Shown here in pieces: positions 6,071 to 54,991 of a stretch of DNA of 64,000 nt. Under the pieces are notes generated by a model that did no database searches, was not told the origin of the DNA, and saw nothing but the letters and a program-made list of their open reading frames with translations. Both the position numbers and the translations under genes were made by a program. This stretch comes from Saprospiraceae bacterium. GTDB lineage: Bacteria; Bacteroidota; Bacteroidia; Chitinophagales; Saprospiraceae. Position 1 is the stretch's first letter. Each line of letters begins with the position of its first letter. The DNA is taken from NCBI GenBank assembly GCA_029263015.1, contig JAJCYI010000222.1, positions 1-64,000 of the forward strand, given 5' to 3'.

Positions 6071-6105
6071 AGTAGGCACTGCCCACTGTAAACTGCCTAC
6101 TGTAA
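6071..6105. repeat. Heptamer array, five 7-bp words
   Basis: Five consecutive 7-bp words, alternating the ACTGCCC and ACTGTAA types, end four bases before the ATG of the flippase gene, so they would form its 5' leader. The same word family, reverse-complemented, makes the array at 20314-20397. Confidence 0.65.
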
Positions 6106-6108
6106 AAC

Positions 6109-7596
6109 ATGAACCGTGAATTCCTCATAAATGCCCTTTTCCTCGTTTTGGTGAACCTACTCATCAAACCGTTTTACGTGTTCGGCATCGAGCGGGTGAT
6201 ACAGGATCGGGTGGGGGCGGAAACCTATGGGCTGTATGCCACGCTATTCAATTTCACCTTCCTGTTTTTCATGGTCACGGATTTTGGGATACACTATTAC
6301 AATAACCGCACGATCGCACAGCACCCGCAGCTGGCCAGAAAATATTTCCCGAATATCCTGGTTTTGAAACTGCTGCTGGCGGTACTGTATATTTCGTTTG
6401 TTTTTGCGGCGGCATTTTTCAGGGGTTTTGAGGTTGAAATATTCAACTTGATCTTTTTTGTGGCACTCAACCATGTTTTGATTTCAATGGTGGCTTACCT
6501 CCGCTCCAATATTTCAGGGTTGGGCATGTACCGGGTGGACAGCGTGGTCTCGACGCTCGACAAGTTTTTACTGATCATTTTTTGTGCGGTCTTGCTGTGG
6601 GCAAACCCATTTTCCGGAAGTGAAACATTCCAGATAAAATGGTTCGTCCATGCCCAAAATGTTGCGTGGTTTTTGACAGCTGTGATTGCCTTTGTCGTCG
6701 TTTACCGAAAGGTGAGAACAAGAATAAAATGGCGGGTGAACGTCCCGTTTTTGCTGGTAATCCTAAAAAAGTCCTTCCCTTTTGCACTGGCTGTTTTCCT
6801 GATGACCGCCTATACCCGTTTCGACATTGTGATACTGGAATGGCTGTTGCCAGATGGCCTTTATCATGCTGGGGTATATGCCGCTTCCTACCGTTTGCTC
6901 GATGCGTTCAACATGGTGGGGTATCTTTTTGCAGGCCTGTTGTTGCCGATGTTTTCAAAACTATTGACCTCGAAAGAAAAAAACAAAGGTGCTGCTACAA
7001 CCGAAATCACTGGCCTTCTCCGGTTCAGTCTCCAGCTTATTTGGGCGGGTACGGTGACGCTGGCTGTGGCCTGTTTCTTTTTCCAATTGGAACTGATGGA
7101 GCTAATGTACCCCCGCTCCGTCAATGCAGGCAATGTGGAATATTATGGGAATGTGATGGGGCTACTCATTTTAACACTGGTGCCTTTCAGCGGGATTTTT
7201 GTTTATTCTACCTTGCTGACTGCCAATAATAGCCTTCGGAAAATGAACAAGTTGTTCCTTATCGGCATCGCAGTAAATGTTGGCCTGAACCTTTTGTTCA
7301 TTCCAACCATGAAAGCCACAGGGGCCGCTGCGGCAGCCCTCGCCACCCAGTCCGTTGTGCTGATCGGAATGATGGGATTGGCAAAAAAAGAGCTGCGGTT
7401 ACCGTTTGAGGCCAAACCTATTTTCAGGATACTGGCGTTTGCCATGCTGACTATCTTGGTCGCCTGGCAACTTTACCATTTTCCCGGAATGAACTGGATG
7501 CTAAAATTTGCTTGTAGCATCCTTTCCGGCCTCGTCCTTGCGTTTGTTTTCCGGTTAATAAATTTGAATTTGTTATTTCAGATGGCCAAAAAATAA
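6109..7596 (+). CDS. Wzx-type polysaccharide flippase (MATE/MOP superfamily)
   Basis: 495 residues, almost entirely hydrophobic with about 12-14 transmembrane helices. The N-terminus (NREFLINALFLVLVNLLIKPFYVFGIERVIQDRVG..YGLYATLFNF) is the pattern of oligosaccharide flippases of the MOP superfamily, which turn lipid-linked sugar repeat units across the inner membrane. Genes downstream encode Wzz-like and Wzy/WaaL-like proteins, which supports an exopolysaccharide or O-antigen role. Teichoic-acid or lipid II-type flippases of the same superfamily cannot be excluded, and no glycosyltransferases lie beside it. Confidence 0.88.
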   Translation: MNREFLINALFLVLVNLLIKPFYVFGIERVIQDRVGAETYGLYATLFNFTFLFFMVTDFGIHYYNNRTIAQHPQLARKYFPNILVLKLLLAVLYISFVFAAAFFRGFEVEIFNLIFFVALNHVLISMVAYLRSNISGLGMYRVDSVVSTLDKFLLIIFCAVLLWANPFSGSETFQIKWFVHAQNVAWFLTAVIAFVVVYRKVRTRIKWRVNVPFLLVILKKSFPFALAVFLMTAYTRFDIVILEWLLPDGLYHAGVYAASYRLLDAFNMVGYLFAGLLLPMFSKLLTSKEKNKGAATTEITGLLRFSLQLIWAGTVTLAVACFFFQLELMELMYPRSVNAGNVEYYGNVMGLLILTLVPFSGIFVYSTLLTANNSLRKMNKLFLIGIAVNVGLNLLFIPTMKATGAAAAALATQSVVLIGMMGLAKKELRLPFEAKPIFRILAFAMLTILVAWQLYHFPGMNWMLKFACSILSGLVLAFVFRLINLNLLFQMAKK

Positions 7597-7625
7597 CAGC
7601 GGGTTATACAAGTGCTGAAACTCTG

Positions 7626-7633
7626 TACTTTTG
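7626..7633 (+). promoter_or_regulatory. Bacteroidota -7 box TACTTTTG
   Basis: Exact match to the TAnnTTTG -7 consensus of Bacteroidota promoters, 45 bp before the ATG of the TonB-C lipoprotein gene. No clear -33 TTG is seen. This suggests the gene can be transcribed apart from the flippase. Confidence 0.55.
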
Positions 7634-7678
7634 CCAGCTAAATTCATTGTTTCATTGTGGTAGTCATTAATTTAAGAA

Positions 7679-8164
7679 ATGAAAGAAAAAGTAAATTCAA
7701 TTTTAGCCGTAGCAATATTGGCGTTCATCATTCCTGGTTGTTATTCAACCTATTCTTCGACCCAAGTAGTGAATAAGCCCCAATCCCAAAGAAGGCTGAT
7801 GCCTGAAATGAAATTTTACGTGGATGCTGACGGAGATGGAACATTTGATGAAGTTCAGTTAGAGAAAAAACCAGAGCCAAAACAAGGCAATGATCAATGG
7901 ATGAGGGATTTTTATGGTTCTATTAAATATCCATCTTCTGCCCGTCAAAATGGAATAGAAGGGATCGTGATATTAAAAGTTACTGTTAACGAGTTCGGTA
8001 ACATTCAAAATGTGGGAATCAAACAGGGGATTTCTCAGGATTGTGATGAAGAAGCAAAAAGAGCATTTATATATGCAACCGAACTTGGTTATTCTCCATT
8101 AAAATTTAACTCAAATCCCGTAAAATTTATAGTAGAATTGCCTGTTGGATTCTGGTTGAACTAA
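7679..8164 (+). CDS. Lipoprotein with TonB C-terminal domain
   Basis: 161 residues. A lipoprotein signal ends at IIPGC (Cys21). After a linker, residues 80-161 resemble a TonB C-terminal domain: YPSSARQNGIEGIVILKVTV, then GNIQNVGIKQG, CDEEAKRAF and PVKFIVELPV. Normal TonB has an N-terminal membrane anchor and a Pro-rich stretch; this one is a lipid-anchored stand-alone domain, a form common in Bacteroidota whose role is unclear. The Asp-rich DADGDGTFDEV at 46-56 resembles an EF-hand-type calcium loop. It sits between the flippase and chain-length genes and has its own -7 box. Confidence 0.82.
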   Translation: MKEKVNSILAVAILAFIIPGCYSTYSSTQVVNKPQSQRRLMPEMKFYVDADGDGTFDEVQLEKKPEPKQGNDQWMRDFYGSIKYPSSARQNGIEGIVILKVTVNEFGNIQNVGIKQGISQDCDEEAKRAFIYATELGYSPLKFNSNPVKFIVELPVGFWLN

Positions 8165-8242
8165 AAATCCGACAAAATAAATATACTCAACCATATTTGG
8201 TTTTGTGCACTCTGGCAAGGGTTTCAAATAGACAGTGATTTG

Positions 8243-8250
8243 TACTTTTG
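8243..8250 (+). promoter_or_regulatory. Bacteroidota -7 box TACTTTTG with TTTC upstream
   Basis: Exact TAnnTTTG match 77 bp before the ATG at 8328, with a TTTC at 8222-8225 in the place of the -33 element. It favours the ATG at 8328 for the Wzz-like gene, although an earlier in-frame codon at 8274 is also downstream of this box. Confidence 0.55.
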
Positions 8251-8327
8251 CCGGATTATTTTGAAATGAGAGAATGAGTGAATATTCTTTCATTCCTCCA
8301 TCCTCTCAATCAGTCATTATTATTTAT

Positions 8328-9425
8328 ATGGAGAATAAAGAAAACCTTCTTGGCGTCGTCGAAACTGTTTTTAAATGGAAAAAGGTAATCATTTATACTT
8401 GCCTGGCGACGGCAATTGGAGCGAGTATCGTGGCACTTTTGCTGCCGGTATATTACAAGTCGAGCACTGCGTTTTATGCCGCCAGCCCTGACTTGGCAAC
8501 TCCGGAATCCATTTTCGGAAATTCGAGCAAAGCCCCTCAATATTATGGTACAACGAACGATACGGAGCGCCTTATGAGCATCGCCAATTCAGGTGAACTG
8601 ACTAGTTTTATGATTGATAGTTTTGACCTTTATGAGCGTTATGACATTGACCCAGCGTCCAAGCTTGGCCCATATACTATCCGGCTGAAATTCGGGGATC
8701 ATTTTGATGTGGTGAAAACCAAATACGATGCGATCGAACTTTCGATGGAAGATGAAGAAAAGGAAATGGCTGCAAAAATGGCGAACGCCGCTCGTGATTA
8801 TATTGCTGCCGTTAGCCAAAAACTCGTTAAGAACAGCCAGTCAAAACTGCTTACCATTTTTAAGCTGAATATTGATGAAAAGGAAGTACAGCTTGATTCT
8901 TTGAACGGCCAATTGCAAAGCGTGCGTAAAGAATACGGCGTGTACAATCCGACGGCCCAAAGCGACGGGCTGACTGACCTGCTCGCCAAGGCTGAGTCAA
9001 AATTGTACAATACCCAAGCTCGGTTAGAGGCCCTGACGGGCGTCAATTCACTCAGGGATACGGTCAGGTTAATGAAGGCCTCAGTCAAAGGATATGAAAA
9101 CGAATTATTGAAATTGAATGAACGCATAGGGGTCTTCAACAATGGTATGGCAGAGGTAGAAATGCTGGCAAGTATCCAAGATATTGCGAGTCAAAAATTA
9201 GCTGAAGATCGGGAGCATTTCAAACTCATCAAATCTTCTTACGAATCTGAATTCCCAACCATTATACTGCTCGAAACTGCACCGGTGCCAATTATCAAAT
9301 CCCGCCCAAAAAGGTCATTGATCGTGGTGGCTTCGGTAATGATCGCTTTTGTTTTCAGCGTCATCGGTATCATTATCTTCGATACCTACCGCGATGTAAA
9401 TTGGAAAAAAGTGATGGATCTTTGA
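8328..9425 (+). CDS. Wzz-type chain-length determinant protein
   Basis: 365 residues from the ATG at 8328 (an in-frame codon at 8274 would add 18 residues with no membrane logic). Two transmembrane segments frame the protein: residues about 21-42 after the basic FKWKK, and about 327-350 (SLIVVASVMIAFVFSVIGIIIF). The periplasmic middle is rich in coiled coil (roughly 175-300), as in Wzz/PCP proteins that set polysaccharide length. The Pro-containing PIIKSRPKRS just before the second helix is typical. There is no C-terminal kinase domain. It lies between the flippase and the polymerase/ligase gene. Confidence 0.88.
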   Translation: MENKENLLGVVETVFKWKKVIIYTCLATAIGASIVALLLPVYYKSSTAFYAASPDLATPESIFGNSSKAPQYYGTTNDTERLMSIANSGELTSFMIDSFDLYERYDIDPASKLGPYTIRLKFGDHFDVVKTKYDAIELSMEDEEKEMAAKMANAARDYIAAVSQKLVKNSQSKLLTIFKLNIDEKEVQLDSLNGQLQSVRKEYGVYNPTAQSDGLTDLLAKAESKLYNTQARLEALTGVNSLRDTVRLMKASVKGYENELLKLNERIGVFNNGMAEVEMLASIQDIASQKLAEDREHFKLIKSSYESEFPTIILLETAPVPIIKSRPKRSLIVVASVMIAFVFSVIGIIIFDTYRDVNWKKVMDL

Positions 9426-9426
9426 T

Positions 9427-9482
9427 ATTTATGAATGGTGATTTATGATTGATAAAGACCAGCAATCATAAATCAAAAATCA
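9427..9482. repeat. Heptamer array of eight words, partly self-complementary
   Basis: Eight successive 7-bp words (ATTTATG twice, then a run ending ..AATCA three times) fill the spacer between the Wzz-like and Wzy-like genes. The first half can pair with the second (TTTATGATTG with CAATCATAAA), giving a hairpin in the message. Confidence 0.6.
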
Positions 9483-9488
9483 TCAAGT

Positions 9489-10934
9489 TTGACTTTTTCC
9501 GAACAACAAACAAAATACCTCATCATTGGCTTTTGCACCATCACGGTGGTTAGCTTGCTGGTGGGTATTGCTGGTTACTGGTATTTTCTGGCGGCAGTGC
9601 CGGCAGCGCTGTTGTTTGTTTATTTGGCGGTGATTGATTTCAAAAAGATCTTTTTTTTACTGTTTGCCTTGTTGCCGCTTACCGTGGAGGTTTGGCTGCC
9701 GAACGGCGTGGTCACGGACCTGCCGACCGAGCCGATGCAGGTTATCTTGATGGGCATTTTTTTTCTTTATGTTTTGAGACAGGGAAAAACACTTGACGGG
9801 CGGTTTGTGACTCATCCGATAACCTTATTGTTGTTGCTCCACTTGGCCTGGTTGTTTCTTACTGCGCTCACCTCCGAAGCGTTCGTAGTTTCGTTTAAAT
9901 TTTTCCTCGCCAAAATCTGGTACATCACGACCTTCTTTTTTCTCGCTGGTTTTTTATTGAAAACCGAACGGGACATCAAAATATTAACTTGGTGTGTGCT
10001 GTTGCCGCTCTGCCTGACAATTTTCTATGTGCTGGCCAACCAAGCTGGCGATGGGTTCAGCTTCGCAGCGGTGAACGAAGCGATGGCGCCATTTTATCGA
10101 AACAAAGTAGCGTATGCCTGCATGTTGTCTATTTTTCTTCCATTCGTTTGGTTCTTGCGGGCGAGGTATGCCAAGTATTCTGGCAAATGGTGGCTTGTTG
10201 TAGCCATCACACTTTTGTTGATTATAGGTGTGCAGTTTTCATATACCCGCGCTGCGTATTTAACATTGGTGATGGCCATCGGGAGCTATTATGTTGTAAA
10301 ATGGAAATTAATGAAAGTAGTATTGGGTGGTGCGACGGTCTTGATGGTTTTGTTCGTGCTCAATATTGTCCAGCACAATAATTATCTAGACCAGAAACCC
10401 ACTTATGAAAAGACGATCACCCATGATGAGTTTGGCGATCTGATAAGTGCCACTGCCAAAGGACGGGATGTCTCCACGATGGAACGGGTGTACCGTTGGG
10501 TGGCCGGGGGACACATGATCGCTGACAAACCCATACTGGGCTTTGGTCCCGGCACTTTCACAAAATTTTACAAAAGCTATTCATTGGTGGGTTTTGCCAC
10601 TTATGTGAGCGATAATGACGAGAGCTCCGGTATCCATTGTTATTATCTCATGACCTGGGTGGAGCAAGGTTTCATAGGCTTACTGATCTTCATCGCTCTC
10701 GTCTATTTTGTGCTATTGAAGGGTGAGCAGGTCTATCATCAGACCGTTTCGGCTGGTCGCCGCCGCATTGTGATGACGGCCATCCTGACCTCGGTCGTTA
10801 TTGATGGCCTGCTGCTCATGAACGACCTTGTGGAATCAGATAAGATCGGGTCGTTCTTCTTCCTGTGCATGGCGCTAATCGTGAGCATGGATTTGCAGAA
10901 CAAGAAGGAAGGTAGATTGATGAGTGGTGAGTGA
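9489..10934 (+). CDS. O-antigen ligase / polymerase family membrane protein (Wzy/WaaL-like)
   Basis: 481 residues with about 11-12 transmembrane helices and one large periplasmic loop at about 295-385. That loop holds the Wzy_C/O-antigen-ligase pattern: RVYRWVAGGHMIADKPILGFGPGTF and, further on, a conserved His in SSGIHCYYLMTWVEQGFIG. These enzymes join lipid-linked repeat units or move glycan onto lipid A or protein. The only in-frame start is TTG at 9489; a stop lies at 9453 and there is no ATG between. It continues the flippase/Wzz block. Polymerase and ligase cannot be told apart from sequence. Confidence 0.85.
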   Translation: MTFSEQQTKYLIIGFCTITVVSLLVGIAGYWYFLAAVPAALLFVYLAVIDFKKIFFLLFALLPLTVEVWLPNGVVTDLPTEPMQVILMGIFFLYVLRQGKTLDGRFVTHPITLLLLLHLAWLFLTALTSEAFVVSFKFFLAKIWYITTFFFLAGFLLKTERDIKILTWCVLLPLCLTIFYVLANQAGDGFSFAAVNEAMAPFYRNKVAYACMLSIFLPFVWFLRARYAKYSGKWWLVVAITLLLIIGVQFSYTRAAYLTLVMAIGSYYVVKWKLMKVVLGGATVLMVLFVLNIVQHNNYLDQKPTYEKTITHDEFGDLISATAKGRDVSTMERVYRWVAGGHMIADKPILGFGPGTFTKFYKSYSLVGFATYVSDNDESSGIHCYYLMTWVEQGFIGLLIFIALVYFVLLKGEQVYHQTVSAGRRRIVMTAILTSVVIDGLLLMNDLVESDKIGSFFFLCMALIVSMDLQNKKEGRLMSGE

Positions 10935-10947
10935 TGATTTCTCAATT

Positions 10948-11649: not shown

Positions 11650-11678
11650 GAATCAATTGTTTTAGCAAAGTTGTGGGT

Positions 11679-13524: not shown

Positions 13525-13588
13525 ATGCGCGATTTGTTTCTAACTACTTACATTTGGCAGTAAATGTAAAAATAATTGTGAGTTGTGA

Positions 13589-13670
13589 GGGGTCAGGATT
13601 CAGGGACAGAAGCTAAAGCCCAAAAATATAACTCACACTTCCTCTTTTCATTTCTCTGACCCCTGACCCC
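13589..13670. repeat. Heptamer words forming an inverted pair
   Basis: Three 7-bp words begin at 13589 (GGGGTCA, GGATTCA, GGGACAG) and two copies of CTGACCC lie at 13656-13669. GGGGTCAGG (13589-13597) is the exact reverse complement of CCTGACCCC (13662-13670). Placed in the divergent spacer between the acyl-CoA ligase and the permease gene. Confidence 0.5.
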
Positions 13671-13685
13671 TAAAATATATTCAAT

Positions 13686-14804
13686 ATGAAAATTTCCAGC
13701 CGGACGGTCACGCTCATCGTAAGCCTGCTATTGATGGCTTCTTTGGTTTATTTTTTCACAAATATTGTGATCTACGTTTGCATTGCTTGGGTGCTGTCCA
13801 TGATCGGACAGCCATTGGTGCAATTTTTTCAAAGAAAGATTCGGATCTGGAAATTCCATGCTGGGCCAAATTTTTCTGCCGTACTCACGCTTCTCACTTT
13901 TTTTCTGGTGGTTTTCATAATAATCCGGTTGTTTGTGCCGCCTATTGTTACTCAAATAAACAACCTAGCGGGGGTCGACTATGCCCAGATAGCAATGGCG
14001 TTGGAAGAGCCGATGAGCCACTTGCAACAGTCGCTTGCCAAATACGGTATTTTGCAATCCGCAGATCCGTTGGACCAACAATTAAAAGAAAATTTGTCTG
14101 TGTGGTTGGAGCCAGCTACTATAGGCAATTACTTTGGGGGATTGTTATCTGCTGCTGGAGGTGTTTTGGTGGGAGTGGTGTCCGTTCTCTTCATCACTTT
14201 TTTTTTCCTGAAAGAACAAGGGCTATTTGTCAATTTCATTGCCGCTATCATGCCGCCACAATACGATTCGCAGGTCCACCGGGCCATTTCGGATGTAGCC
14301 ACCATGTTGAGCCGCTACTTTCGGGGGCTGCTTTTACAGATGCTGAGTTTCGCATCATTCGTGACCTTGGCGCTGACCGTGCTCGGGGTGAAAAATGCAC
14401 TTCTCATTGGTGTGTTAGCGGCCTTGCTAAATGTCATCCCATATATCGGGCCGATGATCGGGGCGGTGTTCGGCATCATCTTTACCATCTCCTCTGGGCT
14501 TGACCTGGATTTTTATACCCAAATGTTGCCCCTCCTCATCAAGGTCGTTAGTGTTTTTGCTGCTGCTCAAATGCTGGATAATTATATTCTACAGCCTTAT
14601 ATTTTTTCCAGCAGCGTACTAGCTCATCCGCTCGAAATCTTTATTGTCGTATTGATGGGGGCGCAGATAAACGGCATACTGGGTATGGTGTTGGCTATTC
14701 CATTTTATACCGTTTTACGTGCTGTCGCCGCAGCATTCCTGAGTGAGTTCCACATAGTGCAATATTTGACGGAAAGAATGAATAAATTGAAAATTAGAAA
14801 TTAG
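13686..14804 (+). CDS. AI-2E family transporter (PerM-like permease)
   Basis: 372 residues with about eight transmembrane helices. The family pattern is clear: a pair of N-terminal helices (LVYFFTNIVIYVCIAWVLSM..GQPLV), a long periplasmic segment (about 95-145, EEPMSHLQQSLAKYGI), then GGVLVGVVSVLFITFFFLKE, and the C-terminal LLNVIPYIGPMIGAVFG and LEIFIVVLMGAQINGILGMVLAIPFY. Members export varied small solutes (autoinducer-2, sodium/proton exchange); the substrate here is unknown. The last residues, KLKIRN, are encoded by the start of a heptamer array that runs through the stop codon. Confidence 0.92.
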   Translation: MKISSRTVTLIVSLLLMASLVYFFTNIVIYVCIAWVLSMIGQPLVQFFQRKIRIWKFHAGPNFSAVLTLLTFFLVVFIIIRLFVPPIVTQINNLAGVDYAQIAMALEEPMSHLQQSLAKYGILQSADPLDQQLKENLSVWLEPATIGNYFGGLLSAAGGVLVGVVSVLFITFFFLKEQGLFVNFIAAIMPPQYDSQVHRAISDVATMLSRYFRGLLLQMLSFASFVTLALTVLGVKNALLIGVLAALLNVIPYIGPMIGAVFGIIFTISSGLDLDFYTQMLPLLIKVVSVFAAAQMLDNYILQPYIFSSSVLAHPLEIFIVVLMGAQINGILGMVLAIPFYTVLRAVAAAFLSEFHIVQYLTERMNKLKIRN

Positions 14805-14903
14805 AAATTAGAAATTGGAAATTTCCAGTGTAACTCAATTATCAATTATCAATTATCAATTATCAATTATCAATTATCAATTATCAATTATCAATTATCA
14901 ATT
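14790..14903. repeat. Two adjacent heptamer arrays overlapping two gene ends
   Basis: 14790-14822 repeats the word AGAAATT about four times and encodes the end of the permease. After a 13-bp gap, 14836-14903 repeats CAATTAT nearly ten times with no error and runs through the stop codon (14898-14900) of the convergent TMTC-like gene. The arrays fill the whole space between the two convergent genes. Confidence 0.9.
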
Positions 14904-16799: not shown

Positions 16800-16882
16800 C
16801 GCTGTTGTTTTATTGTTTTTGGTTCAAATAGGAACAGGTAAGAAATGGATTTTGATATTTTGAAAAAGACTGTTTTTTTACC

Positions 16883-16966
16883 TAATCACTAATCACTAAT
16901 CACTAATCACTAATCACTAATCACTAATCACTAATCACTGACCTCTGACTCCTCTCCCCTGACCCC
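16883..16966. repeat. Heptamer array: eight TAATCAC words followed by four CTGACCY-type words
   Basis: 16883-16938 carries eight exact copies of TAATCAC; the phase then continues, still in sevens, with four related words of another kind (CTGACCT, CTGACTC and so on) to about 16965. It fills the spacer between two minus-strand genes. Confidence 0.85.
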
Positions 16967-16988
16967 TTTTTCAAAACAAAAATAAGGG

Positions 16989-18061: not shown

Positions 18062-18135
18062 CCTGCCTGTCGGTAGGCAGATTATTTTTACATTTTACTT
18101 TTTACTTTTTACTTTTTACATTTTACTTTTTACTT
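18062..18135. repeat. GCCTGTCGGTAGGC palindrome followed by a TTTTTAC heptamer array
   Basis: A short palindromic word (TGCCTGTCGGTAGGCA) is followed from about 18086 by seven copies of TTTTTAC with occasional changes (TTTTTAC, ATTTTAC). It fills the divergent spacer up to the ATG of the lipoprotein gene at 18148. Confidence 0.75.
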
Positions 18136-18147
18136 AATTACTCGACA

Positions 18148-18645
18148 ATGCTATCTTTTCTTAAAAAATACGCACCATTCCTTTTTTTCGCAGCTTTTAT
18201 AGCAACCTGCGCCACACCGCCTGATTATCCGGTCGAACCTACCATTGAATTCATTGGGGTGACAAAAGATACGATGGCGAGGGGTAGCTTTTTTAACGAT
18301 ACCACTTTTATTCAGTTTTCATTTACGGATGGCGATGGCGATATTGGTGATGGTGACAGCTTGCAATTGTTCCTGAAAGATTCAAGAAATGGCTTCGTTA
18401 ACGATTTCCGAATCCCCTTTGTGCCGGAGTTGGGAGCATCGAATGGCATTAAAGGTGAAATTTCGGTTCGGGTATTTACCTCTTGCTGCATTTTTCCGCC
18501 AGAATTGTTCCTTGATGGCTGCAACGACGAATTTGCTCAAATGCCTTACGATCAGTTCAGCTATGATGTTTTCATAAAAGACCGGGCCGGCCACGAAAGC
18601 AACATCATCCAAACGACCCCGATCTTTATCAGGTGTTTTGAGTAG
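18148..18645 (+). CDS. Lipoprotein of unknown function
   Basis: 165 residues. A signal ending FIATC (Cys21) marks a lipoprotein. The mature part starts PPDYPVEPTIEFIGVT and has an acidic loop TDGDGDIGDGDSLQ near residues 58-71, which looks able to bind calcium as in Ig-like/cadherin-type domains. The ending HESNIIQTTPIFIRC suggests one beta-sandwich domain. Small lipoproteins with this layout occur widely in Saprospiraceae but have no known function. It converges on hemF, separated by an inverted pair of heptamer arrays. Confidence 0.78.
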   Translation: MLSFLKKYAPFLFFAAFIATCATPPDYPVEPTIEFIGVTKDTMARGSFFNDTTFIQFSFTDGDGDIGDGDSLQLFLKDSRNGFVNDFRIPFVPELGASNGIKGEISVRVFTSCCIFPPELFLDGCNDEFAQMPYDQFSYDVFIKDRAGHESNIIQTTPIFIRCFE

Positions 18646-18658
18646 GTTTGAATGTGGG

Positions 18659-18724
18659 AAGTAAAAAGTAAAAAGTAAAAAGTAAGGTGCATTTGCTCTG
18701 CTTTTTACTTTTTACTTTTTACTT
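18659..18724. repeat. Inverted pair of heptamer arrays forming a long hairpin
   Basis: AAGTAAA words at 18659-18684 face complementary TTTTTAC words at 18701-18724, making an AT-rich hairpin with a loop of about 15 bases between two convergent genes. It can serve as a terminator in both directions. The right arm encodes the final residues (VKSKK) of HemF. Confidence 0.75.
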
Positions 18725-19646
18725 CAGTAAGCCAATCCAACTCTTTCCTCAGCATCTTTAAAGTTTGTTCTTCCTGGCTTCCAGGCTCAGTTCGGTGATT
18801 GTAAAACCACTGTGCTTGAGGCGGCATGCTCATCAAAATAGATTCCGTGCGACCGCCAGTGTCGAGCCCAAATTTGGTCCCCCTGTCCCAGAGTAGATTA
18901 AACTCTACATAACGGCTGCGTCGGATGGCTTGCCATTCTTTTTCCTGTTCGCCATAGGCTAAGTCTTTGTTTTTCAGGACTATGTGGTTATAAGTTGGTG
19001 CGAAAACATCTCCTATCTCCTGTACAAATTTAAAAGCTGATTCTCTATCAAGCCCGCGTTTTTCATTTAAATGATCGAAAAAGATACCGCCCACGCCACG
19101 TGTCTCATTCCTGTGTTTTAAATAAAAATAGTCGTCTGCCCATTTTTTGAATTCTGGATAAAATGCTGGATTGTGTTTATCGCAAGCATCTTTTAATTTT
19201 TGGTGGAAATAGCAAGCATCTTCTTCAACTACGTAATGTGGGGTGAGGTCAATGCCCCCGCCAAACCACCAGGTTTGTGCTTGCTGCTTGTTGTTTGAGG
19301 ATTGGTCGGTCGTTTGGAAGTAACGGACGTTCATGTGGATGATGGGTACCATCGGACTGACAGGGTGGAGCACAATGGATACGCCGGTAGCAAAAAAATC
19401 GCAGGGAGATAATCCGAGTTTTTCAGAAATATTGACAGGCATTTTACCATGAACTGCGCTGAAATTAACGCCACCTTTTTCAATGACTTTCCCGTGGATG
19501 ACTCGGCTCCGTCCGCCGCCGCCGCCTTCTCTTTGCCAGATGTCTTCCTGAAATTTTCCCTGATCATCCATTGATTCCAACGCATTACAAATGCGGTCTT
19601 GCAAACCACGAAACCACGTTGCGATTTGTTCTTTTTTTATATCCAT
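18705..19646 (-). CDS. hemF: Aerobic coproporphyrinogen III oxidase
   Basis: 313 residues, the normal length. It converts coproporphyrinogen III to protoporphyrinogen IX using oxygen in heme synthesis, in the cytoplasm. Signatures: GGGGGRSRVIHGKVIEKGGVNFSAVHG near residues 40-66, VHPVSPMVPIIHMNVRYF, then WWFGGGIDLTPHYVVEED near 126-143, FFDHLNEKRGLD, and the C-terminal YVEFNLLWDRGTKFGLDTGGRTESILMSMPP. The ArsC-like gene ends one base before this ATG, so the two form an operon. The last codons are built from a heptamer array. Confidence 0.97.
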   Translation of the reverse strand: MDIKKEQIATWFRGLQDRICNALESMDDQGKFQEDIWQREGGGGGRSRVIHGKVIEKGGVNFSAVHGKMPVNISEKLGLSPCDFFATGVSIVLHPVSPMVPIIHMNVRYFQTTDQSSNNKQQAQTWWFGGGIDLTPHYVVEEDACYFHQKLKDACDKHNPAFYPEFKKWADDYFYLKHRNETRGVGGIFFDHLNEKRGLDRESAFKFVQEIGDVFAPTYNHIVLKNKDLAYGEQEKEWQAIRRSRYVEFNLLWDRGTKFGLDTGGRTESILMSMPPQAQWFYNHRTEPGSQEEQTLKMLRKELDWLTEVKSKK

Positions 19647-20001: not shown

Positions 20002-20040
20002 GATTTTTTCAATTTCGCTCATGTTCCGTAATTGCTGATT

Positions 20041-20220
20041 TGATTTCCGAAATTTCAGCTACTTTGAAAAAAGGCCATTGCGCACGCCGTAGTGCAGCCC
20101 ACGGGCAATTTCGGAAATCTCACTGGGAAGCAACTAGCAAGATTTCCGAAATTCGCCCTGAAGTTAACTTGTGGGCCAGGCTTGGATACCGCCCAAGGCT
20201 ATCTGAAATTTCGGAAATCA
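20041..20220. repeat. Nested palindromic element with four ATTTCCGAAAT cores
   Basis: Outer arms TGATTTCCGAAATTTCAG (20041-20058) and its exact reverse complement (20203-20220) enclose a second inverted pair, GGGCAATTTCGGAAATCT (20103-20120) and its near complement at 20140-20158. Additional complementary pieces (GCCCAC with GTGGGC, CTTGG with CCAAG) lie between. The 180 bp sit between the start of the ArsC-like gene and the nucleoside phosphorylase gene. It looks like a REPIN/MITE-type element or a structured RNA. A plus-strand open frame crossing it is not a gene. Confidence 0.75.
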
Positions 20221-20292
20221 GCGCATCGGGAACATGAGCGTTCAATTTTGCCGCAATGTAAATCAATTTTGTCATCATTCTCCAACAAACCC

Positions 20293-20313: not shown

Positions 20314-20397
20314 TAGTGAGCAGAGGGCAGAGGGCAGTGAGCAGTGAGCAGTAGGCAGTAGGCAGTGAGCAGTAAGCAGTGAGCAGTAAGCAGTAAC
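20314..20397. repeat. Heptamer array, about twelve GCAGTRR-type words
   Basis: About twelve 7-bp words with consensus GCAGTGA/GCAGTAG/GCAGTAA run from about 20314 to 20397. Words differ from each other at positions 6-7 mostly. The array lies in the probable leader of the nucleoside phosphorylase gene, ending 40 bp before its ATG. Confidence 0.85.
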
Positions 20398-43131: not shown

Positions 43132-43167
43132 TTGAAGGATTGACTTGACCCCAGGTAAAGGTTATGA

Positions 43168-43193
43168 AAGTAAAAAGTAAAAAGTAAAAAGTA
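43168..43193. repeat. Heptamer array GTAAAAA (3-4 copies)
   Basis: Three full copies plus a partial of GTAAAAA, the complement of the TTTTTAC word of 18086-18135. Placed 37 bp upstream of the MATE start codon on the minus strand. Confidence 0.7.
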
Positions 43194-44484: not shown

Positions 44485-44512
44485 CTTTTACTTTTATCTT
44501 TTTACCTTTTAC
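44485..44512. repeat. Heptamer array, four words of CTTTTAC type
   Basis: Four 7-bp words (CTTTTAC, TTTTATC, TTTTTAC, CTTTTAC) run from 44485 to 44512 and abut the stop codon of the proline dehydrogenase gene at 44513. Confidence 0.65.
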
Positions 44513-45833: not shown

Positions 45834-45878
45834 CATGAAAATGGGTAGGTTAGGGGAGTTGGTTTTGATTTAAGAATA

Positions 45879-45943
45879 ACGATTACATGATTTAAGATTT
45901 TTGATTGGCTACCGCAATCAAAAATCTTAAATCATGTAATCGT
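45879..45943. repeat. Perfect 29-bp inverted repeat built of heptamer words
   Basis: Arms 45879-45907 and 45915-45943 are exact complements around a 7-base loop. Each arm consists of 7-bp words sharing GATT at the same place (ATGATTT, AAGATTT, TTGATTG). It lies between the DUF2723 and proline dehydrogenase genes. Confidence 0.8.
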
Positions 45944-46029
45944 AAATCGGAGAGGAATTAATGTTCTAGTCTTTTAAGTAACCTTTGTTACTTACATAGA
46001 TGTCCCATATTTGTTGAAAGTTCTCGCCA

Positions 46030-49000: not shown

Positions 49001-49245
49001 GCGATGTTTTGAGGATTGGCTTCCGTATCAGTAAATATTTCTGCCACCCAAATGAACATCCTCGCAACGATCATGAACAAAGCCGCTCCAGGGGGGTGAA
49101 CCACTTCCATTTTATATGCACCGAGGATAAATTCGCCACAATCCCAAAGACTGCCCGTCGGTTCGGCAGTGAGCATGTAAACGATGACGGCAGTTGCGAA
49201 AACGAGCCATCCGGTTATGTTGGTTACTGATTTGAATGAATTCAT
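46030..49245 (-). CDS. DUF2723 membrane protein, putative protein O-mannosyltransferase (TMEM260-like)
   Basis: 1071 residues. The N-terminus VTNITGWLVFATAVIVYMLTAEPTGSLWDCGEFILGAYKMEVVHPPGAALFMIVARMF (residues about 6-63; quoted in part: the Asp-Cys-Gly-Glu and His-Pro-Pro-Gly motifs) is the DUF2723 signature with a GT-C-type acidic loop. About 13 transmembrane helices reach residue 650, then a soluble domain follows with GDNDTYPLWYAQEV and RTDVRVVNLSLIQVDWYINLLRR. The C-terminus has helical repeats (about 950-1071). Mammalian TMEM260, a member of this family, O-mannosylates IPT domains. A similar role in Bacteroidota is inferred. Usually a single-copy conserved gene in this phylum. Confidence 0.9.
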   Translation of the reverse strand: MNSFKSVTNITGWLVFATAVIVYMLTAEPTGSLWDCGEFILGAYKMEVVHPPGAALFMIVARMFIWVAEIFTDTEANPQNIAYAVNLMSGICTAFVALFVCWVTMILGKMTLVGRDGSTDSSQNIALAGAGLVAGLATTFTSSIWFSAVEGEVYAMSTFFTALTLWTMIKWYSLPDKPSNDRWLVLTVYVAALSIGVHLLSLLTFPALGLFYYFKKYKEHNFWGMAVAVGIGAAAIVAIQSFVITGIAYMWKEWEIFTVNSLGLPFHSGLVPTLLILAAMFYGALRHANRGENGKAHAFLWGGFITIIVLGKLGINIVGILALAVLLTGVWLFMKNKTWPAQTLIICAMMSMIGFSTIGVILVRANADPVINMNRPADPIRLLSYVNREQYGERPLLYGPNFDASPFDNEIEKRYGQVVKEENGKKIARYEYTDEKLAYKYKDSDKGLFPRMGDDSQNRPEKYRMWINKPTGPLNFFDNIKYLVRYQMGWMYWRYFAWNFIGRQNGEQGYFSWDKKSGHWESGISVIDESRLFNMEKMPDSMKNHRARNHYYFLPLIFGLLGLLFHYRRRPNEFLGLLALFIITGLGIIIYSNQPPSEPRERDYVLVGSFFTFCIWIGFGVLGLFSLLRDKMSKTAAAGLATLLALSAPVIMGSENWDDHTRAGHYGARDYASNFLESCDQNAIIFTYGDNDTYPLWYAQEVEGIRTDVRVVNLSLIQVDWYINLLRRKVNDSPPIKLTIPTESYRGKLRNAVFHFDPNDKNPRLSAVDVLKFIGEDHPLNAAGGRTLETYLPTKNVFINIDSTTAVANGTYVPSDSLKYTGQLPLKMPGRQYITKDELAILDVVASNINDRPVYFAVTCRPDKMFGLDDYMQLEGLGLRIVPVKSNSEKGLYVYGFGRVDTEKIYDRVMNKWRWGNFDAHEAFINRSYGPSLQSMRIVILRAARRLNSSGEKEKAVQLIEKYLSSFPHFNFPYDWNTMQMLNVMIEAGAYDKAKPHLEVLANEMMQQLEFFDSIDAHFTDQNGDFEQDYGLAMNTKETILRAVRRESDEDFLKQLEEMFKDFPMPGRPPN

Positions 49246-49253
49246 TTAAAATG

Positions 49254-49288
49254 AATGATGAATTATGATTGATAAATGATGAATTATC
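49254..49288. repeat. Heptamer array, five AATGATG/AATTATG-type words
   Basis: Five successive 7-bp words (AATGATG, AATTATG, ATTGATA, AATGATG, AATTATC) begin 9 bp upstream of the DUF2723 start codon. The remainder of 49289-49533 holds nothing recognisable. Confidence 0.65.
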
Positions 49289-49554
49289 GGCTGCGTAGTA
49301 TTGAAGGTTAGGCCATGCGGAACTTCCATCATTTATTTTTCTCTCAAAATGAGTGATGATATTAAATCCAAGCAATCTTGAAAGGCGGAAGCTGAGTATG
49401 TAAAAAATTGATTATCAAAAGATTAATGCCAAAATTTATTCATAGAACGCTGCTGCTGTTTTCAAGAAACGCAAATGTAAAAAAAACGGATGGTAGTTGG
49501 CAGTAGCCAAATTGTAACCTATCTCGTTCCTGAGACCTTTCCACCACCAAAATA

Positions 49555-50988: not shown

Positions 50989-50998
50989 CAGCCCCTTT
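50970..50998. terminator. 10-bp GC-rich hairpin overlapping the stop codon
   Basis: AAAGGGGCTG (50970-50979) and its complement (50989-50998) around a 9-base loop. It spans the stop of the hypothetical gene and faces the end of the minus-strand gene at 51005. No T-run longer than three. Confidence 0.6.
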
Positions 50999-51004
50999 AA
51001 ACAA

Positions 51005-51352: not shown

Positions 51353-51646
51353 AAGGCATAAGAATTTGTGCCGATGCCAGGCAGTTAAGCCCGTTCGGAA
51401 TGGTAAAAAAGAAGCAATTGGCAAGGAGGGAATTAGCAGATGGTTGTTCCAGAAAGGGTAGAGACAATTGGATTTCTCGCTAAAACTTGGAACCTTCGCT
51501 TCTTGCTGATTATCGACACAAAGTTGGGCGGGAAAAGAGGGCGGGAACAGCCTGTTTTCAGTATTTCGGTATGGCCGAAAACGGTTAGAAGGAGGGATTA
51601 TTGGATTATCGGGGTGTATTTCAAAATGTCAGTCTGAAAACTATGA

Positions 51647-51678
51647 TTGGTCGCGCATAAGATGAACCGCTATTTTTG
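51647..51678 (+). promoter_or_regulatory. Orphan promoter TTG - 21 bp - TATTTTTG
   Basis: Exact -7 box TATTTTTG with a TTG -33 at the usual distance. There is no plus-strand gene in front of it; the transcript would run from about 51685 to the hairpin at 51734-51766. Confidence 0.5.
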
Positions 51679-51684
51679 TAGTGC

Positions 51685-51772
51685 ATCAGTCGGGAAAGGC
51701 GGTTGACTATTTGCTTCCCCTTCCCTAAAATACAAAAGCTACGCTTTTCAAAAAAGCGTAGCTTTTATATCT
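51685..51772 (+). ncRNA. Candidate small RNA of about 90 bases
   Basis: The stretch between the orphan promoter and the terminator has no ORF. It can fold into a 5' hairpin (GGGAAAGG near 51693 with CCCCTTCCC near 51717-51725) followed by the terminator stem. Purely inferred from sequence; the hairpin may serve only the minus-strand gene at 51800. Confidence 0.3.
51734..51766. terminator. Perfect 15-bp bidirectional terminator
   Basis: AAAAGCTACGCTTTT (51734-51748) and its complement (51752-51766) with a CAA loop, flanked by A and T tracts. It follows the minus-strand gene at 51800 by 34 bp and the orphan plus-strand promoter by 56 bp. Confidence 0.8.
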
Positions 51773-51799
51773 TCTAAAAATTACCAGTATATAACTTCC

Positions 51800-54700
51800 T
51801 TACCACCCCGGCACAATATTCAACCCAAACACCCCTTTTGTTTCCGACAATAAGGGCCAGGCATAATAAGGCTCCAGTATCATTGCCCCAAAAACATTGA
51901 TCCGCAGGGAAGCACCTGCGCTGAACAAGGGATTGAAATCAAATTCACGCAGGTTTTGATCGCCCTTGGCATCAAATGTATCCCAGGTCAACCCACCGTC
52001 CACAAAAAGGGTCAGCTCGGAAAAAAACGCTTTTGACTTGATGGCCGAAATGCTTTCTGGTCCGGTGAACGGCAGACGAACTTCAAAATTGGTCAGCAAA
52101 GCCTTGCTGCCGAACAGCTCATCGATGGAACGTTTGTTTTGTTGCAAAATCTCATTAGCTGTGTTGAAATCATATCCCCGCATATACCAAGGGAAGCCAA
52201 TAAAAATATCGGTGAACGAATTGGCATCGTTGCCATAGCGCCCAATATGCATGACCCGTGCAGCCAATGTTACTGGCTTCAGGTGGACGTACTTTCGCGC
52301 ATCAGCGGTCACATTGTAAAAGTCAAAATCACCCATGTACCGCTCCACGCCTATCCGGTAGCGGTAGCCCTTTATCGGGGAGGCAATGCCAAAATAGGAA
52401 TTGTCACCGACCAGGGCTACGTTTGCGGAAGCGAGGTTGCCTTTGAACAGGTTGAGGCCGACGTCTTCAGGGTTTACTTTATCCTTGTCCTCGAAAATAA
52501 GGCGGCCAGATGCATCAAAATATTGGTCGAATCGATCGACCCTATTGGAATACAAAGCTAGGGAAAGGCCACCTTCCAATCTGGTTGTTTTGGAAAATGG
52601 ATATTGAGCAAACACACTCAATTTTTCCTCAAATGTCCGAATCCGGTCCAGGACGTAGTGATCGAAAACAATATTTGTATCATCGGAGCCAGGCAATGGG
52701 TCGCGCCCGACAAAGCCAAACCGCCCGCTGGAATAGGGTAGGTGCGACAGGCCAACGCCCCAGTTGATCCTCTTTTTTCGGTTGATGTAAGCAACAGAAC
52801 CGCCAAAGTCATATATATCGCCATTTAAGAAAATGCTCGTGTACAATTGGTGGTCGCCGAGCATGTCACCAAATAGAAGGTCGGCCCCACCGGCCAGGCC
52901 AGTGGTGGATCCACTGTAAATAGAGCCAGTACTAACCCCCACGCCAGCACTGCCGCCAGCATAGTCCAATTTGAATTTAGGACGGTAGTCATGGGCGACG
53001 ACCTCCTTTGTTGACAAAGATTTCAACTTATCCAACTTTGGCAAATTGATAGCGATGATGTCGGTTGCTGTAGGATCAACTTTGGGCAAGGTGGCAGCAG
53101 TCAGGTCAACACTGTCAATTGCAACCTCCTCATTGAGCAACTTATCTGATTTGGTGCGATAGATATTGTAACTGCCATTGGAGTAATGCGTGTAAAGTAT
53201 CCTGTCACGTTTTTCTTTCACTGAAGCTGAAATAGCTGGTGCATAAGGCGTTATTCCGGTAATCCCAGTCAGGAATTTTGTTTGTTGAAATACTTTTCCT
53301 GTGGCCGTCTCATACCTGTACATATTCCTGAAACCGTCCCGGTCGCTCAAGAAAAGAACATCTCCTTTGTTGTCAAAAATGGGATTGAGGTTGTCAGCGC
53401 CATTAAAAATTTCGAGGACTTTCACATCAGGCCGATCATTTACAGAAACTTCAAAATCCATGATGGCGAGGTTGAAGGTCCAGCGTGCATCGCCCCTTTC
53501 GATGCTCAATTGATCGGTGGCAAAGACCAGTTGGCTGCCATCGGCATTCCATGACGGGGCCATTTCAGAATATTTGTCGTCAGTGAGCTGGGTGGTTTTT
53601 TTGTTTTTCAATTTCACCTGAAACAAGTCAACCTGCCCATCTTTCAACCCTGCCACCACGATGTTTTTGCCATCGGGCGACCAAGCGGGATTGCTGAATG
53701 CTGGCAAGCCAGGAATTTCGAACGACTCAATCAGCTTTCCTTTCAAATCTTTGATAACCAGTACGTTGGAACCTTTCCGTACACCCACGAATGCGATCCT
53801 GTCACTTCTCGGCGACCAAGTGCCAGCACTTTCGATAAAGCTCAGGTCGTCAAGATGGCCGCTCTTGGTGGCGCTGTGGATATTCCCGATGACCTCGCCC
53901 GTTATGGCATTTGCGATAAACAGGTCAATGCTGAACAGGCCTTTTTCCGAAAGGAAAGCAACGTACTTGCCATTGGGACTCAGCACGGGGGCAATGTTGA
54001 TTCGTCCGCCATTTTCTTTCTGTGAAATGATGGAGTTGCCAATCACCTTTTCCTTTTTGTTTCCCAAAAACTGGCCGTAATGGTTTTTGATCGCATTCAC
54101 CCAAAGTTCAGAAAGGGCTTTTTGATCCATACCGACTTCTTTTTTGATGGCATCCCTCAATCCATATTTTGCCGTCGAAACAAAAAGCGGTGTGATGACT
54201 TCATCCCCTTTCAAACCTGTGATGAACGCCCAAAACGCCTGCCCCCAACGGTAGGGAAAATATCGGGGGTTGCTCAATTGTTTTATGCTCGGGATCTTAT
54301 CGTTCAGCACAGCATCCCGCATCCACAGCGAAGTGTTGGCGTCCACCCGCCCGATGGACATATACTCGGCCAGCCCCTCGATCATCCACAACGGGATGTT
54401 GGACAGGTTGCGGATATTGGTGCTGTCACCATTTATAATCATATGGTATTGGAAAGCATGTACCAGTTCATGTCCAAGCACGTGTTTTGTCTGTGCATTG
54501 GACATGGCGATGGGCATAATGACCCGGTTTTTCAGGCCCTCGGTTACACCGCCTGTACCCACTCCGATACTGCTGCCGACAGCGTTGGTCTGTTGGAAAT
54601 CAGCGTGGTTGTTGTAAATGATGAGCGGATTTTTTTGGGAAAAAGTATCGGCGAGTGCAGCTTGGTGCAACTGGTACCAATGTTCGGTCTGGTTCGCTAG

Positions 54701-54880
54701 GTATTCGATCAATTCAGGATTGTCGAGGTAATGGTAAATTTCAAAATTGGGTGTTTGCAATACCTTGAAGTCAAAGTCCTCATAGCGAGGTTTGTTTTTT
54801 CCAAAATATTGCGCTTGAATGGGTAGAGACCACAAAATCAGTAAGAATAGACTGGATAGGATAAATGCTATTTTTCGCAT
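51800..54880 (-). CDS. Zincin - TolB-like propeller - outer membrane barrel protein
   Basis: 1026 residues. Signal peptide ends at PIQAQ (residue 24). Residues 25-270 form a gluzincin (peptidase MA-like) domain: HELVHAFQ at 137-144 is the zinc-binding HExxH, and WMIEGLAEY at 165-173 gives the third ligand Glu. Residues about 290-600 are a WD40-like/PD40 propeller (SPNGKYVAFLSEKG, WSPRSDRIAFVG, NPAWSPDGKNIVVAG, APSWNADGSQLVFATD). The last 350 residues end LFVDGGLTWDTFD..FSAGASLRINVFG..LEPYYAWPL, as in the Omp85/D15 surface-antigen barrel. A peptidase or chaperone role at the outer membrane is inferred; I know of no characterised homologue. Confidence 0.88.
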   Translation of the reverse strand: MRKIAFILSSLFLLILWSLPIQAQYFGKNKPRYEDFDFKVLQTPNFEIYHYLDNPELIEYLANQTEHWYQLHQAALADTFSQKNPLIIYNNHADFQQTNAVGSSIGVGTGGVTEGLKNRVIMPIAMSNAQTKHVLGHELVHAFQYHMIINGDSTNIRNLSNIPLWMIEGLAEYMSIGRVDANTSLWMRDAVLNDKIPSIKQLSNPRYFPYRWGQAFWAFITGLKGDEVITPLFVSTAKYGLRDAIKKEVGMDQKALSELWVNAIKNHYGQFLGNKKEKVIGNSIISQKENGGRINIAPVLSPNGKYVAFLSEKGLFSIDLFIANAITGEVIGNIHSATKSGHLDDLSFIESAGTWSPRSDRIAFVGVRKGSNVLVIKDLKGKLIESFEIPGLPAFSNPAWSPDGKNIVVAGLKDGQVDLFQVKLKNKKTTQLTDDKYSEMAPSWNADGSQLVFATDQLSIERGDARWTFNLAIMDFEVSVNDRPDVKVLEIFNGADNLNPIFDNKGDVLFLSDRDGFRNMYRYETATGKVFQQTKFLTGITGITPYAPAISASVKEKRDRILYTHYSNGSYNIYRTKSDKLLNEEVAIDSVDLTAATLPKVDPTATDIIAINLPKLDKLKSLSTKEVVAHDYRPKFKLDYAGGSAGVGVSTGSIYSGSTTGLAGGADLLFGDMLGDHQLYTSIFLNGDIYDFGGSVAYINRKKRINWGVGLSHLPYSSGRFGFVGRDPLPGSDDTNIVFDHYVLDRIRTFEEKLSVFAQYPFSKTTRLEGGLSLALYSNRVDRFDQYFDASGRLIFEDKDKVNPEDVGLNLFKGNLASANVALVGDNSYFGIASPIKGYRYRIGVERYMGDFDFYNVTADARKYVHLKPVTLAARVMHIGRYGNDANSFTDIFIGFPWYMRGYDFNTANEILQQNKRSIDELFGSKALLTNFEVRLPFTGPESISAIKSKAFFSELTLFVDGGLTWDTFDAKGDQNLREFDFNPLFSAGASLRINVFGAMILEPYYAWPLLSETKGVFGLNIVPGW

Positions 54881-54929
54881 GGTGTAAAGGTTTTAATGAA
54901 AATAGCGGCGAAGTCTTTACATATAAAAG

Positions 54930-54991
54930 AATTGAAAATTGAGAATTGAGAATTGAGAACAGTTAATTTTCAATTATCCATTCTCAATTAT
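54930..54991. repeat. Heptamer arrays AATTGAG and CAATTAT, partly complementary
   Basis: Four words of AATTGAG type (54930-54957) are followed by CAATTAT, CCATTCT, CAATTAT (54971-54991). The two blocks can pair through AATTGAGA/TCTCAATT. They fill the divergent spacer between the barrel gene and the sensor-regulator gene. Confidence 0.7.

Follow-up and report, generated by a model that had tools for sequence, protein, structure and literature searches.

Heptanucleotide arrays between the genes of a Saprospiraceae bacterium: preference for period seven, species vocabularies and paired arms

Background

Short tandemly repeated repetitive (STRR) sequences are the heptamer arrays of heterocyst-forming cyanobacteria, and repetitive extragenic palindromes and bacterial interspersed mosaic elements (REP/BIME) are dispersed intergenic palindromes arranged in inverted pairs. 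Here we examine arrays of tandem seven-base units in a 64,000-base stretch of DNA from a Saprospiraceae bacterium (the window, bases 1-64000 of the 75,159-base contig JAJCYI010000222.1), in the genome to which it belongs and in related genomes.

That bacterial simple repeats often have a unit of seven was noted in 2007. Mrazek et al. 2007, as cited in PMC4679880, found that in most genomes no category of long simple repeat is more abundant than the heptanucleotides, and proposed 7 nt as a possible length of contact with the polymerase. In the account of PMC4692102, heptameric repeats are strongly over-represented in Xanthomonas and Nostoc and other units of 4-11 nt are not; two Xanthomonas genomes hold 70 and 75 convergent inverted pairs, Nostoc holds few, and three heptanucleotides are mentioned in Calothrix PCC7601. 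TAACTGA arrays are reported from Beggiatoaceae, Cyanobacteria and five Bacteroidetes in PMC4679880, the main text of which names neither Saprospira nor Lewinella, and repeats of 6-9 bp are described as enriched in a subset of prokaryotic phyla (PMC12699852). We found no tested cause of the unit of seven in the literature examined. A genus with abundant 7-mers, an excess of 8-mers in one sample, a preference visible at two copies and a one-unit difference between duplicated copies provides material with which the step can be measured directly. Its paired, fixed-orientation arrangement could help to show the origin of the step of seven; should G-first pairing prove true of more genomes, the birth of repeats would be tied to hairpins and the range of mechanisms narrowed.

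Methods

The window's own genome (G000) was studied together with a genus set of 14 genomes, one genome per species, in which the strongest match to the window among the matches listed was to G004 (72% identity over 3 kb). The own-genome DNA came to 1.12 Mb overall, made up of a first sample of 720,774 bp and 400 kb held out; held-out DNA of the genus came to 396 kb from seven sister species (G001, G002, G005, G008, G009, G012 and G013, with G004 left out). The first own stretches were chosen mostly for matches to window sequence, at least five of these matches being window array words, and the later own stretches and the held-out stretches were sampled without regard to sequence. Held-out stretches were unread parts of contigs, most of which had been partly read earlier, and predictions on period, polarity, pairing and arm order were written down before this DNA was fetched. 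Most G004 stretches, and C208, were picked by match to one array word, which biases word matching in these stretches; arm order was no criterion in this pick, though the strand order of the matches had been seen beforehand.

Gene borders are not annotation but the output of a simple script that takes open frames of 100 aa or more greedily by length; intergenic arrays are those in the spacers between the frames so called. An array was scored as fitting the polarity rule if its G-rich word lay on the + strand in the left half of a spacer or its C-rich word in the right half. Pairing was scored as the best reverse-complement match in the 250-bp flanks against a complement control, which keeps letters and period and is independent of base skew. 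Individual window sites were tested by comparing the best lag-7 segment near a coordinate with 400 local shuffles, and 13 of them were folded as single-stranded DNA and given a z score against shuffles.

The hemF protein of the window matches 15 loci in named genomes, all 15 of them Bacteroidota by title, and identity among these is highest in Flavilitoribacter (64%) and then Lewinella (63%). Flavilitoribacter nigricans belongs to the window's family, which places the host genome in Saprospirales (Bacteroidota). An earlier reading made from the letters alone (the sequence-only reading) had hinted at cyanobacteria, and these loci show the hint to be wrong for the host, which is not a filamentous cyanobacterium as the bearers of STRR are.

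Results

Period seven dominates, and the arrays lie mainly between genes

The sequence-only reading described a dozen or more intergenic arrays that advance in steps of seven bases, and such arrays are real and far above chance in exact-run, Tandem Repeats Finder (TRF) and shuffle tests. Exact lag-7 match runs of at least 14 bases number 8 in the window against 0.0 in local Markov shuffles, and runs of at least 10 bases number 11 against 0.15. Among periods of 1 to 30, only the multiples of 7 have more than one window run of at least 10, and outside them there is no run of at least 14. At TRF scores of at least 30, period 7 is the commonest (20 of 49 rows), with rows that include 14791-14823, 14835-14903, 16882-16939, 18085-18135, 18659-18685, 18701-18724, 20315-20394, 43167-43193 and 54928-54959.

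A wider scan, in which the reading would have failed had other periods proved as common as seven or had shuffled sequence produced similar arrays, came out in favour of period 7. In the first own sample, period 7 accounts for 44 exact runs of 14 bases or more, period 8 for 7, and every other period to 22 for at most 4 (the 4 at period 21); shuffles gave none. The 1.12 Mb of own DNA contain 69 intergenic arrays with period 7, 8 with period 8, 2 with period 5 and none with 6, 9 or 10. When stretches picked by sequence are set aside, the counts become 49 at 7, 6 at 8, 2 at 5, 1 at 4 and none at 6 and 9-11; a further 7, 7 and 8 arrays have periods of 14, 15 and 16, all of them combinations of 7 and 8. 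In the held-out own DNA 23 intergenic arrays have period 7 and the next commonest period, 16, has 5; in the held-out sister species period 7 leads with 16 arrays, and 8-mers number 4. The first genus sample gave 18 exact runs of at least 14 at period 8 against 13 at period 7, its 8-mer runs coming mainly from G012 and G004.

The heptamer arrays of G000 are mainly intergenic, since the first own sample has 46 of them in spacers and 10 in frames and spacers make up only 97,141 of its 720,774 bp. Per 10 kb of spacer there are 4.41 period-7 arrays in G000, 3.31 in the genus without G004, and 1.24 in 20 other family genera, each sampled by one stretch; G004 reaches 13.54, a figure from stretches mostly picked for an array word. 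None was present in 12 of the 15 named Bacteroidota hemF loci or in 200 kb of E. coli. The longest heptamer array met in G000 (L182 7411-7639) has about 33 units of TGAATGG/CGAATGG and lies between two + frames.

The preference is visible at two copies. In own spacers, two-copy tandem duplications at period 7 number 99 against 11.0 expected (9.0x), at period 8 they number 28 against 4.8 (5.8x), at period 6 89 against 52.6 (1.7x) and at period 9 2 against 1.0, and periods 4 and 5 each stand at 1.2x expectation; some of these duplications may be shrunken arrays. Repeats of at least three copies in the same spacers number 50 at period 7, 9 at 4, 3 at 5, 2 at 8 and 1 at 14. Own spacers still show raised lags 7, 8, 14 and 15 once arrays are excluded, and the short lags 3-5 are raised as well.

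Words recur at separate places and differ between species

The words of different arrays had been described as unrelated in sequence, which is not borne out. The 63 own arrays spaced by at least 400 bp use 33 different words and share words in 67 pairs where 3.7 would be expected, a count that is inflated because part of the sample was fetched for window array words. Sharing was recounted without the first own stretches, since their selection inflates it: with the window kept, 45 arrays give 32 sharing pairs against 1.9, and with the window also removed, 38 arrays with 23 distinct words give 20 pairs against 1.4, two of the 38 being duplicated copies in L192. The maximum in 2000 draws for these 38 arrays was 10, and with G+C matched the expectation was 1.6 and the maximum 9.

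Array vocabularies differ between the species of the genus. Three copies of AAAAAGT occur at 77 places in G000, 6 in G008, 5 in G009, 2 in G010 and none in the other 10 genus genomes; four copies of AGTGATT at 41 places in G004, 6 in G000 and none in the other 12; and three copies of AGGCAGT at 33 places in G000, 2 in G012 and none in the other 12, one long array yielding several overlapping matches in these counts. Of the own words with at least two G/C letters, 17 of 27 keep G and C on separate strands (9.1 expected), and 22 of 35 genus words do so (9.8 expected); a single arm can therefore hardly fold on itself.

Many arrays form paired arms with the G-rich arm first

In prints of whole spacers, many arrays stand as arm pairs of inverted repeats, and the cores enclosed by the arms are in some cases long hairpins. 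The polarity rule is followed by 43 of 48 non-tied intergenic arrays in the first own sample (2 ties, 15 arrays in frames and 3 at edges dropped), by 25 of 29 in the first genus sample (22 in frames and 2 at edges dropped) and by 19 of 24 in the held-out own DNA (p 0.007). Neighbouring arms no more than 220 bp apart are ordered G-then-C in 30 cases (23 of them from G004), C-then-G in none, C-C in one and G-G in one; the held-out own DNA offered just 2 arm neighbours, both G-G, too few for the prediction on arm order.

Reverse-complement matches of at least 18 bases were found for 19 of 68 arrays in the first own sample against 3 of 68 in the control, 37 arrays scoring better than control and 10 worse, with the partner on the expected side in a ratio of 22:0. 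The first genus sample gave 29 of 53 against 11 of 53, with sides 34:1, and the held-out own DNA gave 19 better, 4 worse and 10 tied (p 0.006), with sides 6:0; partner side was likewise 6:0 in the held-out sister species. G000 is thereby established as carrying complementary words on paired arms, the G-rich arm leading; G004 shows the same arrangement, with the caveat that most of its stretches had been selected by an array word. Polarity is a clear tendency in G000 and is weaker elsewhere.

Very long stem-loop cores lie inside array arms at three G004 loci (L143 6645-6785, L147 10466-10800 and L149 4599-4997) and are partly alike between these sites (GGAGGGACTC-type). In G002 an array of 19-bp units with internal palindromy (TTAAACCAACCGCAGGTTT-like) occupies L081 4696-4827.

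Hairpins of array-free spacers share the orientation

Inverted repeats with a stem of at least 12 occur in 83 of 227 array-free own spacers, against 2 after shuffling. With ties dropped, the G-rich arm leads in array-free inverted repeats by 80:28 in G000, by 13:4 in G004 and by 38:15 in the genus when G004 is left out; the corresponding counts are 10:6 for other family genera, 3:6 for other Bacteroidota and 2:5 for E. coli. The arrays therefore look as if they had grown out of a general tendency of these spacers towards G-first hairpins. By gene arrangement, stems of at least 12 were found in 36 of 74 convergent, 75 of 220 tandem and 22 of 87 divergent array-free own spacers, so that hairpins are most frequent where genes converge and least where they diverge, as expected of terminators.

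Duplicated copies differ at the arrays

Two duplicated copies in L192 align over about 178 columns with few mismatches and a single gap, which is exactly 7 bp long and coincides with the array. In L140, the core of the duplicated spacers (about 66 bp) is conserved apart from 2 differences, and their arms differ by gaps of 13, 8, 7, 7 and 6 bases plus four of 1-2; inverted duplicates in L144 show gaps of 8 and 7 plus four of 1. Each of these two G004 loci has a single frame (L140 5552-6795 and L144 6377-7229) between two spacers that share a core, in direct orientation in L140 and in inverted orientation in L144, as though the gene were carried in a cassette. Loss of mismatch repair was considered as a cause and rejected for G000, in which MutS1 and MutL both gave matches over the cut-off.

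Individual sites in the window

Of the fourteen array positions named by the sequence-only reading, 11 are clear lag-7 arrays, the segment near each being equalled in at most one of 400 local shuffles. The array at 44485 is weak, and the positions 6071 and 45879 mark hairpins and not arrays. The segments for 9427 and 13589 sit 37 and 67 bases beyond those positions, and the test at 14790 landed on the neighbouring 14836 array, the run at 14791-14816 being seen separately by the exact-run scan. Five of the 13 folded sites (6064, 9439, 18658, 45867 and 54930) are clearly stabler than shuffles, with z from -2.9 to -10.7; the fold at 13588 is not significant (z -1.2), and the remaining 7 of the 13 window sites gave no fold signal.

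Among the stable folds, the weak heptamer hairpin at 6064-6109 has arms CAGTAGGCA and TGCCTACTG with the G-rich arm first in a divergent spacer (fold z -3.05; lag-7 p 0.09), and a 13-bp stem in a tandem spacer at 9439-9482 (z -2.91) pairs TGATTTATGATTG with CAATCATAAATCA, its lag-7 part being AATCATAAATCAAAAATCA at 9464-9482. Paired arms at 18658-18725 form a long stem (z -7.19) between two converging gene ends, overlapping the end of hemF; they consist of AAGTAAA at 18659-18685 and, as its inverted partner absent from the earlier list, CTTTTTA at 18701-18724. The long stem-loop at 45867-45948 (z -10.69; lag-7 p 0.14), a hairpin and not an array, carries GATTTAAGATTT with lag 7 in one arm. At 54930-54991 an AATTGAG array (54930-54959) faces a degenerate TCAATTA/TCCATTC/TCAATTA arm in a hairpin of a divergent spacer (z -4.56).

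Two arms at 13588-13671, GGGGTCAGGATTCAGG and a CTGACCC array at 13656-13671, stand with the G-rich arm first in a divergent spacer (z -1.19). A 93-bp convergent spacer holds the two arrays at 14784-14903, AAATTAG at 14791-14823, which overlaps the end of a + gene, and CAATTAT at 14835-14903; the two words are related and imperfectly complementary and form no significant hairpin (z -0.30). The array at 16882-16967, C-rich on the + strand (z -0.35), was correctly said to switch word without losing phase: 8.3 copies of CTAATCA pass to CTGACCT within 16882-16949, and TRF extends a degraded CTGACCC-type array (69% matches) to 16967. The TTTTTAC array at 18085-18135, also C-rich on +, ends 12 bp before a + frame that starts at 18148 (z -1.45).

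The unpaired array at 20315-20396 (z +1.63) is built of GCAGTGA, GCAGTAG and GCAGTAA units in which GCAGT is mostly constant and two bases vary, and it is an exception to the polarity rule, being G-rich on + in the right half of a divergent spacer. Also unpaired in a divergent spacer are 3.9 copies of AAAGTAA at 43167-43193 (z -0.20). A weak mixed 7/8 array of CTTTTAC and TTTTACCT lies at 44485-44512 (lag-7 p 0.03, lag 8 higher; z +2.03), and a degenerate ATGAATG array at 49251-49284 adjoins the start of a - frame at 49245 (z -0.05).

Two further features of the window recur in G000. A separate dispersed palindromic repeat at 20012-20259, with GATTTCCGAAATT-type ends and resembling a miniature inverted-repeat transposable element (MITE), has at least 13 other places in G000 at 72-87% identity and none in sister species among the matches listed. 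The sequence ATCATGTAATCTTAAATC or a near form recurs in hairpin spacers (window 45867-45948, L089 6059-6076, L105 8622-8639 and L208 18183-18200), and G009 has a GATTTAA array.

Discussion

On balance, the arrays are probably heptanucleotide, and in some cases octanucleotide, simple sequence repeats of the known bacterial kind, which arise by slippage of about 7 nt and grow on hairpin arms. As we infer the process, from slippage through seeding at hairpins to arm matching, strand slippage of about 7 nt in replication would add and remove units, and such gains and losses would be tolerated in spacers, where they may do little harm. Intergenic hairpins would act as the seeds and preferred sites of arrays; in convergent and tandem spacers these hairpins are probably terminators of transcription or stabilisers of 3' ends. 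When one arm gains a unit, the other would tend to gain its match, either through a template switch inside the hairpin or through selection that preserves the stem.

Several results weigh against this account. In the held-out sister species polarity was followed by 14 of 19 arrays (p 0.06), arm orders were 3 G-C, 2 C-G and 2 G-G, and pairing failed, with 12 arrays better than control, 11 worse and 9 tied and with 4 reverse-complement matches of at least 18 bases against 9 in the control. In the first own sample, 44 of 68 arrays have no partner match of 16 bases. A follow-up of AAAAAGT at 20 further own loci (4 arrays in frames or at edges dropped, and L239 without an array under the filter) gave polarity in 12 of 17 placed arrays (p 0.14), 4 of the 5 exceptions lying in divergent spacers, and a partner on the expected side in 5 of 17 (3 elements, two of them counted from both arms) and on the other side in none. 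Arrays are also present in divergent spacers. Array-free spacers carry a weak G-then-C skew of their own, and base skew may account for part of the polarity; as its sole cause background skew was rejected, the skew in array-free spacers being weaker. The order of unit variants is not clearly mirrored between arms (own partners have mean ranks of 7.1 and 6.2 of 16, against 8.5 expected), which speaks against simple arm-to-arm copying, and mirroring itself, being weak, did not convince us. Finally, slippage alone gives no account of the words shared by separate sites.

Rather unlikely, in our estimate, is the alternative that spacers hold functional RNA or DNA hairpins, that selection for long stems favours duplications which extend an arm, and that seven is the step of this extension only. 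Stems of at least 12 are frequent in the convergent and tandem array-free spacers of G000, rarer in divergent ones and reduced by shuffling to the two noted above, and the significant folds at 5 of 13 window sites point the same way. Per base, arrays of the first own sample are denser where genes converge (8 in 9,537 bp) or run in tandem (32 in 47,886 bp) than where they diverge (10 in 24,375 bp), but per spacer they are about equally frequent (divergent 10 of 76, convergent 8 of 78, tandem 32 of 254); moreover, many arrays are unpaired, and some arms are far longer than a terminator stem needs.

It is unlikely that a lineage-specific process with a physical ruler of 7, sometimes 8, nt writes the tandem units via hairpin intermediates, making both arms complementary with the G-rich arm first and carrying favoured words between loci, so that structure and unit length are kept and sequence is free. 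The sequence-only reading had taken constant length with variable sequence as the sign of a copying mechanism that measures length. Constancy stands, in that period 7 is dominant with 33 words among 63 arrays and the preference for seven is already present at two copies, but sequence matters too. The idea of a measured length is not new, a contact length of the polymerase having been proposed by Mrazek et al. 2007, as cited in PMC4679880.

Doubtful, and somewhat more so, is the proposal that paired arrays are the ends of a mobile REP/BIME- or MITE-like hairpin that spreads within each genome with its own word. Words do differ between species and recur at many sites, and neighbouring G004 spacers share cores, direct in L140 and inverted in L144; most printed cores nevertheless look unrelated by eye, no alignment of all cores having been run, and no fixed ends or target duplications were seen, no systematic search having been made for them. 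Matches to the PF01797 (Y1) transposase family are present in 33 of 40 genomes searched, REP-associated tyrosine transposases (RAYTs) and other Y1 proteins not being told apart, and 8 lie in G000, but they are out of step with array abundance (4 in G004, 9 in G009), which leaves a REP/RAYT origin unsupported.

We hold it to be highly improbable that a protein or RNA contacting one unit per 7 nt, in the manner of a cold-shock domain, selects a constant core every 7-8 bases. A constant core with a variable rest is seen in GCAGTNN (20315-20396) and CTGANNN (L047), and binding of CspB with one protein per heptamer is mentioned in PMC4679880; against this, the 33 words of one genome have no core common to all. 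That the arrays are cassettes placing a stop codon in all frames, seven not being a multiple of three, can practically be dismissed, since the 24 of 32 unique own intergenic words with a stop on the G-rich strand are what letter permutation gives (22.5 expected, z 0.7), as are the counts in G004 (17 against 14.9) and other genus genomes (15 against 14.1).

The present arrays have tandem 7-bp units far above chance and a mainly intergenic location, both of them characters of heptanucleotide long simple sequence repeats (LSSR). The LSSR as described in PMC4679880 and PMC4692102 are alike in unit length, in their occurrence in many genomes, in the slippage proposed for them and in their lineage-patchy distribution; what was measured in addition in the present arrays is the pairing of inverted arms, their G-first polarity, the mixing of 7- and 8-base units and the recurrence of words typical of a species. 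The Xanthomonas GGGAATC and Nostoc GGGGA(C/T)T repeats, as reported in PMC4692102, are also heptamers, mostly intergenic and variable in length, but belong to one G-tract word family for which a G-quadruplex hypothesis exists, whereas here there are dozens of words. Just 5 of 77 own intergenic arrays with a period of 7 or 8 contain a G3/C3 tract, as does the short CTGACCC array at 13656, so that the arrays are not of the GGGAATC type with G3/G4-tract units and a quadruplex reading was rejected. TAACTGA repeats, as described in PMC4679880, resemble the present ones as intergenic heptamer arrays of sporadic taxonomy found in some Bacteroidetes, and differ in having one word, which in the genome chiefly studied there mostly forms direct repeats immediately ahead of start codons.

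The STRR of cyanobacteria share the heptamer array and belong to another phylum, the likeness being one of description and not of cyanobacterial DNA. Unlike REP/BIME, the arrays show no one conserved palindrome or end tag: their arms are variable heptamer arrays, words differ between sites and the printed cores differ by eye. An earlier report of polarity across many words or of species vocabularies was not found in the open-licence literature, which is weak evidence of novelty. Pairing with the G-rich arm first across many words, the mixing of units of 7 and 8 and the vocabularies of individual species are what these arrays add to the known kind.

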